From NCBI GenBank assembly GCA_001464425.1, contig LNEK01000020.1, positions 248,001-312,000 of the forward strand: a stretch of DNA of 64,000 bases. Direction: 5' to 3'. Source of the stretch: Alphaproteobacteria bacterium Ga0077535 (lineage in GTDB: Bacteria > Pseudomonadota > Alphaproteobacteria > Caulobacterales > Aquidulcibacteraceae). Shown here one piece after another: positions 41,666 through 46,940 of the stretch (positions are counted from its first letter, which is position 1; every line of letters starts with the position of its first letter). Both the position numbers and the translations under genes were made by a program. The notes under the pieces are model-generated. The model saw only the letters and a program-made list of their open reading frames with translations, had not been told where the DNA came from and did no database searches.

Positions 41666-41890
41666 ATGGCGCAACCTGTGACGGCCATCCTTTCGCGCCA
41701 GGGCGAACTCGCCGCGGCAGCATGGCAATTCACGCGCGACACCAATGAGGCCAATCTTTTGGTCGGCAAGGTCGTGTCACGCGCACTGATCCACTTTACC
41801 GAAGCGGCTGCGGACGAGACTGTCGTCAGTGAAATGCGGCGCGAGCTGGATCGTCTGATCGAGCAACTGCGCCGCACCCGTCATCACTGA
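41666..41890 (+). CDS. 74-aa protein resembling a degenerate sigma-factor region 2
   Basis: Start ATG 41666 is supported by GAGGGAGAG 8 nt upstream; an open frame from 41564 has no comparable site. The product reads GELAAAAWQFTRDTNEANLLVGKVVSRALIHF and then ETVVSEMRRELDRLIEQLRR. The first part follows the ECF sigma region-2 pattern (helix, FTRDxxEAxxLVxxxxxRAL) but lacks the acidic DD normally before LV, and there is no region 4. It may be a sigma remnant or a stand-alone helical regulator. It ends 7 nt past the msrB stop, tail to tail. Real coding is likely; the role is uncertain. Confidence 0.55.
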   Translation: MAQPVTAILSRQGELAAAAWQFTRDTNEANLLVGKVVSRALIHFTEAAADETVVSEMRRELDRLIEQLRRTRHH

Positions 41891-42354
41891 TCTGTCGGCT
41901 CGCCGCGACCAAGCGGATCAGGCAACGGCTCGCCATCCGGCGCAAACTGCAGCGACGCGGAATTGATGCAATAGCGCAGCCCGGTTGGGCGCGGGCCGTC
42001 CGGAAACACATGGCCCTGATGGCTGTCGCACCGTGCGCAACGCGTTTCGACCCGGCGCATACCGTACGAATTGTCCTCGATTCCGATGACGTGTTGCGGG
42101 TCGATCGGCGCTGTGAAGCTCGGCCAGCCGGTGCCACTCTCGAACTTGGTGTCCTGTCGAAACAGCGGCAGCCCGCACAAGCGGCAACAATAGACGCCCG
42201 GCTTCTTCTGATTGAGCAGGCCGCCGCAGAAGGGCGCTTCGGTGCCGTGATGCAGCAGCACCCGGCGCTCCTCATCATTGAGGCCAGCTTCAAGCGCCAC
42301 GCGCTCTTCGGCGCTGGGCGGGGTGAGATCGAAACCTGATTTGGAGAATGTCAT
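41884..42354 (-). CDS. msrB: Peptide-methionine (R)-S-oxide reductase
   Basis: 156-aa MsrB that reduces methionine-R-sulfoxide. Both zinc-binding Cys pairs (CRLCGLPLF and CARCDSHQGHVF), GTGWPSF, and the catalytic RYCINSASLQF are visible. ATG 42354 (MTFSKSGFDLTPPS) gives the usual N-terminus; an in-frame extension to 42429 is not homologous. Last gene on this strand after the TIR-ParA pair, with a gap of about 50 nt. Confidence 0.96.
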   Translation of the reverse strand: MTFSKSGFDLTPPSAEERVALEAGLNDEERRVLLHHGTEAPFCGGLLNQKKPGVYCCRLCGLPLFRQDTKFESGTGWPSFTAPIDPQHVIGIEDNSYGMRRVETRCARCDSHQGHVFPDGPRPTGLRYCINSASLQFAPDGEPLPDPLGRGEPTDQ

Positions 42355-42403
42355 GAACAAATCCTGGGGAGGCGGCCCAGGTTCGTCCAGGGGTGCGCTG
42401 CGG

Positions 42404-42817
42404 TTACACCACGGTTTCGCTGTCGCCATAGAGCTTGGCGAGTTGCGTCACGAGGCTCTTGGCGCCGGCGCTTATCTGTTGATCCGAGAACTTGGTCCGC
42501 AATTGCCGCGTAGCGTCAGCTAGGCCCTTGGGCTGGAAGCCCAGCTTGCGGCGGTGCTTCTTGGCGATGTGCTCAATGAGCAAGTCGGCCTTCTCCTGGG
42601 CTGGGCCCATGATCGGCTTCAGCGTCTGCTCCAACTCCCGCACCAGCGGGTCGCCCTTGCGCTTGGCGGCGCGTTTCTTGGGCGGCAGGACTGCCGCCAG
42701 GAGTGTGCGGTCCTCGTGCGCGCGGATCAGCGCAAACGCCTTTTTCAGCTCTGGGCGCGTGCGACTCTTGAGAGCAGCCTTGAGCGCCTTTGCGCCGTCG
42801 GCATCGAGCTTCTTCAT
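42404..42817 (-). CDS. Small basic helical protein coupled to the TIR-ParA gene
   Basis: 137-aa protein, highly charged and predicted mostly alpha-helical: KALKAALKSRTRPELKKAFALIRAHEDRT, PPKKRAAKRKGDPLVRELEQTLKPIMGPAQEKADLLIEHIAKKHRRKLG, and DQQISAGAKSLVTQLAKLYG. Basic patches (KKRAAKRK, KKHRRK) suggest nucleic-acid contact. I do not recognise a family. ATG 42817 overlaps the TIR-ParA stop (ATGA), so it is translated with it. It may be a ParB-like or accessory partner, by analogy with two-gene ParA systems only. Confidence 0.65.
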   Translation of the reverse strand: MKKLDADGAKALKAALKSRTRPELKKAFALIRAHEDRTLLAAVLPPKKRAAKRKGDPLVRELEQTLKPIMGPAQEKADLLIEHIAKKHRRKLGFQPKGLADATRQLRTKFSDQQISAGAKSLVTQLAKLYGDSETVV

Positions 42818-44091
42818 GACACAGCTCGCCGCAGCACAGCGGCCGCCGCGTGCGTGAGCGCCTCTTTGGCTGGCCGCCCGCCGACCCGCATCATGGCGCT
42901 GACGTTGATCGGGTTGGCCGCAAACCGATCGGTCGGCGCCGATTTGAGTACGGCAGAATACGGGATTTCATCTGGCAGGAGTGCTGAGCCGAAGAACGGC
43001 GCGTTGCTGATTTCGTTGCGTGTGAACGCATCCGCATCATTGGTTTCGCCGGATCGAGTGCGGTCATTCACGCCGTTAAGCAGCACCGAGAACTCGTTGG
43101 ACCGCAAGGCTCTTCCCCTCACTTCACGCACGACGTGTTCCAGCATGTTCAAACCAGTGAGTGAATACTTCTCCGGGCGAACCGGAGCGATGATGTGGTC
43201 AGCGGTCGTGATCGCTAGGCGGGTGAGGAACGTGGCGCACGGGTTGGAGTCGATGACCACCGCATCCGAGCGCGCCCGCAGCGCAGATATCAGCGCCCGA
43301 AATCGCGTGAAGGCTTCGGCTTTGTCCCGATCGGAGCGCGTATCGAGGGTAAACTCGAATAGCCGTTCGTCGCCTGCGATCAACTCGAAGTTCGGCTGCT
43401 TGCCGCCGCCGCGACGCACACGGTTCAGTGGAATAGCGATGGCGGCGAGATCATTGCGCGGAACGCTCGCGTCGCCGCGTGGGTTCAGTACGTTGTAGAT
43501 CGTGTGATTACGGTCCCGAATGCGATTTCGTTCGCCGGGCGAGAGAAAATACTGCGTGAGATTGTGCTGCGGATCGAGGTCGATAAAACTGACAGAACGC
43601 TTGTCGGCCAAGTGCGCCGCGGCGAATAGATTCGCGGCCAACACGGTTTTGCCCACGCCGCCCTTGATGTTGAGCATTGCGAAAACGCGACCACGTCCAT
43701 TCGCCGCCCGGGCGCGGTCGACGATCTGGGTGAGGGTTTCTGAACGGGGCCCGCGGCGCAGATCAACGGCGGTGGCGGTATCGAGTGTGGCGTGGATCCA
43801 TGAATCTGCCGGCAGGTCGCCTGTCATCACCACAATGATCGGGCGTCCATTGTTTAGAGCGGCCGCCATTTCGCGCTGCAGCCAAGTGCTCTCCTGCGCC
43901 GCGAGAGACGCCAGCACCACGACAATGCCAGCTTCACCAATAGTTTGGACAAGCGCCGACAGCTTTTCCTGGGCGCGCAATTCTGGCCCCGAAAGCGTTA
44001 TGCTCCAGCCATGGCGCTCAAGTTCCGCCGCAATGGCGCGAGCAGCGTCCTCGTCTGCTGATTCAAAGGCGAGGTACGCCGCAATCGCCAT
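42814..44091 (-). CDS. TIR-like domain fused to a ParA/MinD-type ATPase
   Basis: 425-aa protein. Residues 1 to about 125 look like a TIR fold: AAYLAFESADEDAARAIAAELERHGW (strand A/helix A), EAGIVVVLASLAAQESTWLQREMAAALNNGRPIIVVM, with S68-x-W70 and Glu74 in the place of the catalytic Glu of NAD-cleaving TIRs. From about 135 the ParA part begins: deviant Walker A LNIKGGVGKT (KGGVGKT at 143-149), FIDLDPQHNLTQYF, VIDSNPCATFLTRLAITTADHIIAPVRPEKYSLTGL, and a C-terminal helical end. It is coupled to the 137-aa gene downstream. It is not an ordinary chromosome-partitioning ParA (no parB neighbour). The fusion suggests an NTP-controlled NADase or signalling device, perhaps anti-phage. Confidence 0.8.
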   Translation of the reverse strand: MAIAAYLAFESADEDAARAIAAELERHGWSITLSGPELRAQEKLSALVQTIGEAGIVVVLASLAAQESTWLQREMAAALNNGRPIIVVMTGDLPADSWIHATLDTATAVDLRRGPRSETLTQIVDRARAANGRGRVFAMLNIKGGVGKTVLAANLFAAAHLADKRSVSFIDLDPQHNLTQYFLSPGERNRIRDRNHTIYNVLNPRGDASVPRNDLAAIAIPLNRVRRGGGKQPNFELIAGDERLFEFTLDTRSDRDKAEAFTRFRALISALRARSDAVVIDSNPCATFLTRLAITTADHIIAPVRPEKYSLTGLNMLEHVVREVRGRALRSNEFSVLLNGVNDRTRSGETNDADAFTRNEISNAPFFGSALLPDEIPYSAVLKSAPTDRFAANPINVSAMMRVGGRPAKEALTHAAAAVLRRAVS

Positions 44092-45560: not shown

Positions 45561-46940
45561 ATGCGAGATAAATGGACCCCCGCCGGCTGGCGCGCTCTGC
45601 CCGCCAAGCACATCCCGACGGATTACCCAGATCCGGAAGCGCTGACGCGCGTCGAGCAGCAGTTGCGCTCGTACCCGCCGCTCGTGTTCGCCGGCGAGGC
45701 GCGCAATTTAAAGTCGCGGCTCGCTGACGTTGCCGCGGGCAAGGCGTTCTTGCTTCAAGGCGGCGATTGCGCTGAGAGCTTCAAGGAATTCCATCCCGAC
45801 AATATCCGCGACACCTTCCGCACTTTGATGGCGATGAGCGTCGTTCTGACGTTCGCGGCGTCGCGGCCGGTGGTGAAGATCGGACGCTTGGCAGGCCAGT
45901 TCGGCAAGCCGCGTTCGGAGCTGACTGAAACGCAAGGCGGCGTTACGCTCCCCTCTTATCGGGGCGACAACATCAACGGTATGGACTTCACGTTGGAGTC
46001 GCGCACGCCCGATCCGGAGCGTCTGCTGAAGGCATACTCGCAATCGGCTGCGACGCTGAATTTGATCCGCGCCTTTGCAAACGGCGGCTACGCCGACTTG
46101 CACAACGTGCACCGCTGGATGGTCGGCTTCGTCGCCGACAGTCAGCAGGGCAAACGCTACCAGGAGATCGCCGACCGCATCTCCGAGGCCATCGACTTTA
46201 TGGGCGCTTGCGGTATCACGCCGGAAAGCGTGCCGCAGATGAAGCAGGTCGATGTTTACACAAGTCACGAAGCGTTGCTGCTTGGCTTTGAAGAGGCGAT
46301 GACGCGGATCGATTCGACGACTGGCGATTGGTACGACACCAGCGCGCACTTCGTTTGGATCGGCGATCGCACACGCCAATTGGACGGCGCCCACGTTGAA
46401 TTCGCGCGGGGGATCAAAAATCCCATCGGCCTCAAATGTGGGCCGAGCCTCGATGCAGATGAGTTGCTGCGGTTGATCGATGTCCTCAACCCGAACGATG
46501 AGCCTGGCCGCCTCACGCTGATTGCGCGCTTCGGCGCCGACAAAGTCGAGGCGGGGCTGCCGAAGCTTGCGCGCGCGGTGACGAAGGCGGGCCGCTCGGT
46601 GGTTTGGTCGTGCGATCCAATGCACGGCAATACCCTGAAAACCGATAGCGGCTTCAAGACGCGTCCGTTCGATCGCATTCTCGCGGAGGTGCGGGCGTTC
46701 ACGGACATCTTGCCAGCGGAAGGCGCCTACCCAGGCGGCGTCCACGTTGAGATGACCGGCCAGCAAGTCACCGAATGCATTGGCGGCGCGGCGGCTTTGA
46801 AGGAAGAAGACCTTTCCAGCCGCTATCACACGCACTGCGATCCGCGCCTAAACGGCCAACAGGCTCTGGACTTGGCGTTCCTGATCGCCGAACAGCTCCG
46901 CGGCGCACGAGACGCCGGCCGCAAGGCGCGCGCCGTCTAG
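45561..46940 (+). CDS. aroF: 3-deoxy-7-phosphoheptulonate synthase, class II
   Basis: 459-aa class II (plant-type) DAHP synthase, first step of the shikimate pathway (PEP + erythrose-4-P). Motifs: [117 protein letters not shown] and ECIGG. Length and motifs are complete. The family is distinct from E. coli AroF/G/H; the symbol aroF is used loosely. Confidence 0.95.

Follow-up and report, generated by a model that had tools for sequence, protein, structure and literature searches.

A TIR–ParA fusion gene and its coupled partner

The window (the whole 64,000-nucleotide stretch of DNA that was analysed) carries on its minus strand a gene coding for a protein that combines an N-terminal TIR domain with a C-terminal ParA-type ATPase, joined at its 3′ end by a gene for a small basic protein. 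The features of this locus are:

42814..44091, minus strand: TIR–ParA fusion protein, 425 aa (open frame; Pfam TIR_2 and AAA_31/CbiA)
43702..44091, minus strand: TIR domain, residues 1–130
43870..43872, minus strand: codon of Glu74, at the position of the catalytic Glu of TIR NADases (SARM1 alignment)
42817..43689, minus strand: ParA-type ATPase domain, residues 135–425 (AAA_31, 82.8 bits)
43645..43665, minus strand: deviant Walker A motif KGGVGKT with the signature Lys143 (residues invariant in 13 diverse rows)
43240..43266, minus strand: Walker B motif with Asp281 (DAVVIDSNP; D281 and P284 invariant in 13 diverse rows)
42404..42817, minus strand: partner gene, 137 aa, basic, with two small helical domains (adjoins the fusion; predicted model)
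42814..42817, minus strand: ATGA overlap of the fusion stop and the partner start (probable translational coupling)
45561..46940, plus strand: class II DAHP synthase, a divergent neighbour used as a landmark and lying outside the system (TIGR01358, 721 bits)

The first-pass annotation had read from the DNA a TIR-like N-terminus fused to a ParA ATPase and coupled to a small basic partner, and this observation is confirmed. The N-terminus shows a significant match to the TIR_2 profile and a TIR fold; the C-terminal half matches AAA_31/CbiA and carries the Walker motifs, and a profile of 13 fusions recovers Soj (1wcv, E 1.4e-23). The ATGA geometry is kept in all 17 loci of the genus in which both genes are uninterrupted, one of them using GTG, and the partner is co-inherited with the fusion (see below). 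The TIR–ParA gene and its partner are a real two-gene module.

Phyletic distribution of the fusion and the partner

A scan of genome contigs retrieved 18 loci, all from MAGs, which we took as members of the genus (75–84% identity over the best segment); 13 of these 18 entered our alignment A1. Fusion orthologues are present in 23 of 30 genomes of the genus and in 30 of 60 genomes of the family (E ≤ 9e-59), the latter count including a broken copy and a copy truncated where its contig ends. The partner accompanies the fusion in 28 of these 30 genomes and is found in 0 of the 30 without it, the zero counting only partners of the window's type, since the profile misses those of the divergent paralogues discussed below. 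The two exceptions are G044, whose contig ends inside the fusion, and G014, in which the profile found no partner. Both genes are absent from the locus in five genomes of the genus with at least 91% completeness (G047, G049, G051, G057 and G059), which makes the system dispensable; in one of them, G049, MsrB and the DAHP synthase are close together. In a further genome, G053, the fusion is split among several frames next to an intact partner frame (L023 7956–9283, the same copy as L048), reflecting either assembly errors or a recent break; this copy was left out of the fusion alignments and trees.

Outside the family, the fusion was matched in 46 of 81 genomes of a second family of the same order, from which 35 loci were sampled. 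No partner-like ORF was found downstream of the syntenic fusions of this second family, indicating that the partner is not always needed. Among the matches listed from the order (299 genomes), class (385 genomes, twice) and phylum (299 and 388 genomes), those spanning both domains belong only to these two families; these samples overlap and at most the best 4 to 7 candidates were scored per genome, such that divergent fusions could escape. In the window's own genome there are also at least five other TIR-like matches, which stop short of a ParA half (G000:C6, C4, C38, C12).

With regard to the relationship of the two families, a single clade uniting the copies from their DAHP synthase loci to the exclusion of L041, a copy away from that locus, was rejected (AU p 0.024). 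L041 itself clusters strongly with the window's family (99/98), and when it is added, as was done after its grouping had been seen, the DAHP-locus copies and L041 together form one side of a weakly supported branch (50/83.6). Orthology between the families thus rests mainly on synteny.

A fixed site beside DAHP synthase

In the window, the pair is flanked by MsrB on one side and a DUF4010/MgtC gene on the other, with the divergently transcribed class II DAHP synthase lying beyond the latter. The DAHP synthase stands in the same relation to the pair in all 17 genus scan loci compared and, for the family's other genera, in 6 of 7 fusion loci (L035–L040); it was not found in the 11.5 kb around L041. 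In the second family it is divergent at 33 of 35 loci, with mid-points about 1.46 kb apart; in the two exceptions the contig ends (L194) or the copy is distant (L193). None of the 10 neighbours in the window matches PADLOC at 0.001. As judged from gene order, then, the setting of the window copy is core genome, an old fixed site, and not the defence island that the first-pass annotation had proposed looking for. The MsrB ORF as listed (41884–42429) overlaps the 3′ end of the partner by 26 bases; a later MsrB start is likely as its SelR match begins at residue 50.

Conservation of the ATPase and divergence of the TIR domain

The ATPase half displays all the hallmarks by which ParA/MinD proteins are recognized, namely a deviant Walker A with the signature Lys, a Walker A′ and a Walker B. 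K143, the GG pair, G147, K148 and T149, together with D171 and D173 of Walker A′ and D281 of Walker B, are invariant in 13 diverse rows. Within the genus the median dN/dS is 0.094 for the ATPase, 0.227 for the TIR domain and 0.218 for the partner, these being rough values as silent sites are near saturation (median pS 0.57–0.64). None of our residue-level statements draws on the full-length model of the fusion, which has a mean pLDDT of 60.8 and is poor in the ATPase half (block pLDDT 33–82).

The TIR domain of the window copy combines the TIR fold with a Glu at the catalytic position: Glu74 aligns with the Glu of the SARM1 WVHKEI motif. Pfam ThsB_TIR passes its cut-off over residues 47–90 (25.2 against 21.2 bits), and the PADLOC ThsB model gives the fusion an E of 0.0064. 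The first-pass annotation had pointed to an S-x-W motif followed by this Glu; the Glu stood up to comparison, being E in all 18 genus rows (17 scan loci and the window copy), and the preceding Trp varies among them. A block R-E-x-A-A-x-N-N-G-R is also largely kept within the genus. With Glu74 and much of this block conserved, catalysis may persist in the window's own genus.

Outside the genus, position 74 varies in the very set of 13 diverse rows in which the ATPase motif residues stay invariant. At the DAHP locus in the family's other genera the residue is E in L035, A in L036, D in L037–L039 and H in L040, a replacement of Glu in 5 of 6; L041, away from this locus, has E. The 35 loci of the second family show 16 D, 17 Q and 2 E (L192 at the locus and L193 away from it), and beside the DAHP synthase 32 of 33 have D or Q (15 D, 17 Q) and one has E. 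At least three changes between Glu and other residues, in either direction, are needed on the tree of the ATPase half. The match to TIR_2 follows a comparable gradient, from 61–73 bits in the canonical paralogues L043 and L045–L047, through 52 in L041 and 45 in the window copy, to 22–31 in the locus copies L035, L037, L110 and L174. By the alignments, the ATPase is the constant part of the locus; TIR catalysis is unlikely, on the same grounds, to be the function shared across it. This concurrent decay of the catalytic Glu and of the TIR-profile match, against intact ATPase motifs, suggests that the TIR domain acts mainly as a scaffold at the locus. Two possibilities that the first-pass annotation had coupled when naming what would undo its reading have therefore come apart: the Glu is missing from some homologues, yet the partner has been conserved in the family.

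A small basic partner protein

The partner has a net charge of +16, with +6 falling in residues 1–26, and its predicted model is helical (pLDDT 80.9), the first helices being residues 6–15 and 21–33. It is 57–78% identical across the 16 genus loci aligned (alignment A2, drawn from 17 loci with an intact partner; L013 was left out). All 28 partners counted carry a net positive charge over their first 26 residues (+2 to +7); this count, like alignment A5, leaves out the partner of L036, and for it the starts of the L041 and L046 partners were set downstream of the longest ORF start. This agrees with the pattern reported for ParA/MinD partners in PMC10241942 and PMC12204374. The module thus shows the adjacent partner with a basic N-terminus expected of such systems (28/30 against 0/30 genomes; 28/28 partners); charge alone is nevertheless weak evidence, given that 7 of 15 other window genes (the fusion itself, at −4, is one of the 15) are also net positive over their first 26 residues, though none exceeds +4.

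No family in the libraries scanned matches the partner above cut-off, including any significant DNA-binding family or fold; there is one sub-threshold Myb/SANT-like DNA-binding match (E 0.077), and the fold of the partner has no PDB match at E ≤ 0.001. Profile comparisons link the partners of the window's genus to those of the other genera (E 1.4e-26) and the latter to the small proteins adjoining the divergent fusions L043–L047 (E 1.5e-8, probability 95.5); the direct comparison of the window genus with L043–L047 is weaker (E 2e-5, probability 77). The window's own genome has a weak second partner-like match (E 9e-4, G000:C12:175170–175412).

Divergent relatives with a canonical TIR domain

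Five divergent fusions in genomes of the genus (L043–L047), with 25–29% identity over the aligned part, keep the Glu, as does L193 from the second family; indeed, the Glu is present in all eight paralogous or basal fusions aligned. L043–L047 and L193 are each accompanied by a small gene of 129–147 aa that overlaps or adjoins the 3′ end of the fusion, and the small genes adjoining the divergent fusions are basic. L047 looks island-borne from the genes around it, which include an AbiTii match (E 9.4e-34), a phage-type integrase and a further protein matching TIR_2; the region L047:1795–7702 comprises, in an island-like arrangement, a TIR protein with a Topoisomerase C-terminal-repeat match, the AbiTii match, the TIR–ParA pair and the phage-type integrase. 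Not all paralogues are borne by islands, because L045 and L046 are both near dxs. Downstream of the canonical pair of L043 (L043:6948–11287) are uncharacterised genes, of which two are without a Pfam match (1e-5) and four without a PADLOC match (0.01). The defence reading survives better for these rarer paralogues with a canonical TIR domain than for the window copy.

Plasmid, phage and literature searches

A plasmid or phage origin of the window fusion was considered and rejected: tblastn returned 835 plasmid and 14 phage records, none covering 80% of the query, and the 30 plasmid matches listed of the 835 start at query residue 109 or later and all 14 phage matches at 108 or later. With the L046 paralogue as query, 596 plasmid records were returned, one of which covers 81% (query 81–424, 24% identity) and starts inside the TIR region, and one, outside the 12 of 596 listed, falls in the 60–80% identity band; none of the 14 phage records covers 80%. 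Among viral contigs, the 80 retained of 151 relatives have matches that begin no earlier than query residue 105, and none of the viral-contig matches checked carries a TIR domain. A home-made TIR profile run against 110 P-loop ORFs from the viral and the class and phylum matches gave a TIR match (E < 0.1) in L095 alone, which is one of the second-family fusions already in our set. The first-pass annotation knew of no well-characterised system with exactly this arrangement. Among the papers listed from the open-access literature, none describes a TIR–ParA system or a single bacterial protein in which the two domains are combined, subscription papers falling mostly outside its scope.

Comparison with known systems

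With the ParA/MinD positioning systems (McdA–McdB, ParA–ParB and others), the module shares the deviant Walker A ATPase and an adjacent small partner with a basic N-terminus; it differs from them in the added N-terminal TIR domain and in a partner that none of the scanned family models captures. TIR domains are usually immune enzymes or adaptors. The window copy shares the TIR fold and the Glu with the TIR NADases (SARM1, Thoeris ThsB, TIR-STING, TIR-APAZ), and resembles Thoeris ThsB in its short ThsB_TIR stretch. Unlike these enzymes, its TIR domain is fused to ParA and the Glu is not kept by most locus copies outside the genus; Thoeris ThsA was not found beside the fusion, nor was any PADLOC family among the 10 neighbours. 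Proteins of the TadZ/CpaE type likewise place an alpha/beta domain ahead of a ParA-like ATPase, but the N-terminal domain of the window fusion matches TIR_2 by profile. The top Foldseek match of the fusion is 3fkq, which we take to be TadZ, in a poor alignment (rmsd 11.6, TM 0.27–0.31). The new element is a ParA-type two-component module that carries a TIR domain.

Possible functions of the module

The reading that we put forward, with roughly even confidence for and against, is a chromosomally fixed positioning or assembly module of the ParA/MinD type with an activating partner, in which the TIR domain is mainly a scaffold. The ATP-bound dimers of ParA/MinD proteins bind the nucleoid or the membrane, and diverse partners, attached by a positively charged N-terminus, link the cargo and stimulate release (PMC10241942); McdB needs its first 20 residues (PMC12204374). 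By analogy, the ParA half would bind ATP, dimerize and bind the nucleoid, as is established for the family, and the 137-residue protein, probably made by coupled translation, would be its cognate partner. As with ParB and McdB, hydrolysis would be set off by docking of the partner's basic N-terminal helices on the ATP dimer, and cargo or DNA would be held by the second helical domain of the partner. The TIR domain would be an ancestral immune-type domain, serving at the DAHP locus mainly as a scaffold for self-association or docking. The neighbourhood points to no cargo, with no known cargo genes recognised nearby.

The main rival is an active ATP-gated NADase in the genus: ATP-driven assembly of ParA on DNA would gather the TIR domains and so activate NAD+ cleavage, which the partner would trigger or inhibit, in an anti-phage or cell-death system. 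This was in essence the first-pass proposal, and it draws on the TIR fold, the Glu aligned with that of SARM1, the ThsB_TIR match, the Glu in 18/18 genus rows and 8/8 paralogous or basal fusions and the company of AbiTii, an integrase and a second TIR protein at L047. We nonetheless consider it rather unlikely for the window copy, which sits at a fixed site with 0/10 neighbours matching PADLOC and where most locus copies outside the genus have lost the Glu (5/6 and 32/33); these same facts speak against anti-phage or death catalysis as its conserved function. Nor does any plasmid or phage record cover 80% of the window fusion or any viral-contig match checked bear a TIR domain. A composite of the two readings, which we rate as unlikely, would be a TIR immune system of a kind not yet described, whose NAD+ cleavage is gated by ParA bound to the nucleoid as a dimer or filament and tuned by a partner resembling ParB or McdB; intact forms would survive in the window's genus and among rare paralogues, one of which sits in a defence island, with the DAHP-locus copies of two families domesticated into a non-catalytic positioning ATPase.

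It is also conceivable, if quite unlikely, that the pair acts on DNA, with the partner being a ParB- or ParG-like DNA-binding protein and the fusion segregating or regulating a chromosomal site, perhaps affecting transcription near the DAHP synthase. The small, helical and very basic partner, its Myb/SANT-like match and the divergent arrangement with the DAHP synthase conserved in two families would fit; however, that match is below threshold, a DUF4010 gene intervenes between the fusion and the DAHP synthase in the window, and the second family keeps the divergent arrangement without a partner. That the locus is merely the decaying, presently functionless relic of a former defence system appears very improbable: the losses of Glu and partner, the absence from several genomes and the broken fusion of G053 would accord with decay, but the median dN/dS of 0.09–0.23 for all three parts and the retention of one locus across two families indicate purifying selection.

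To return to the positioning or assembly module, the window copy resembles a device for organising the cell more than an anti-phage weapon. If this is true, a TIR domain would be an addition to the ParA/MinD machinery for positioning cargo in bacterial cells. Moreover, the catalytic position is occupied among the relatives by Glu, Asp, Gln, Ala or His, and some of them have a partner while others lack one; this matched set allows a direct test of whether a TIR domain can be repurposed as a non-catalytic scaffold and whether a ParA switch can control a TIR domain.
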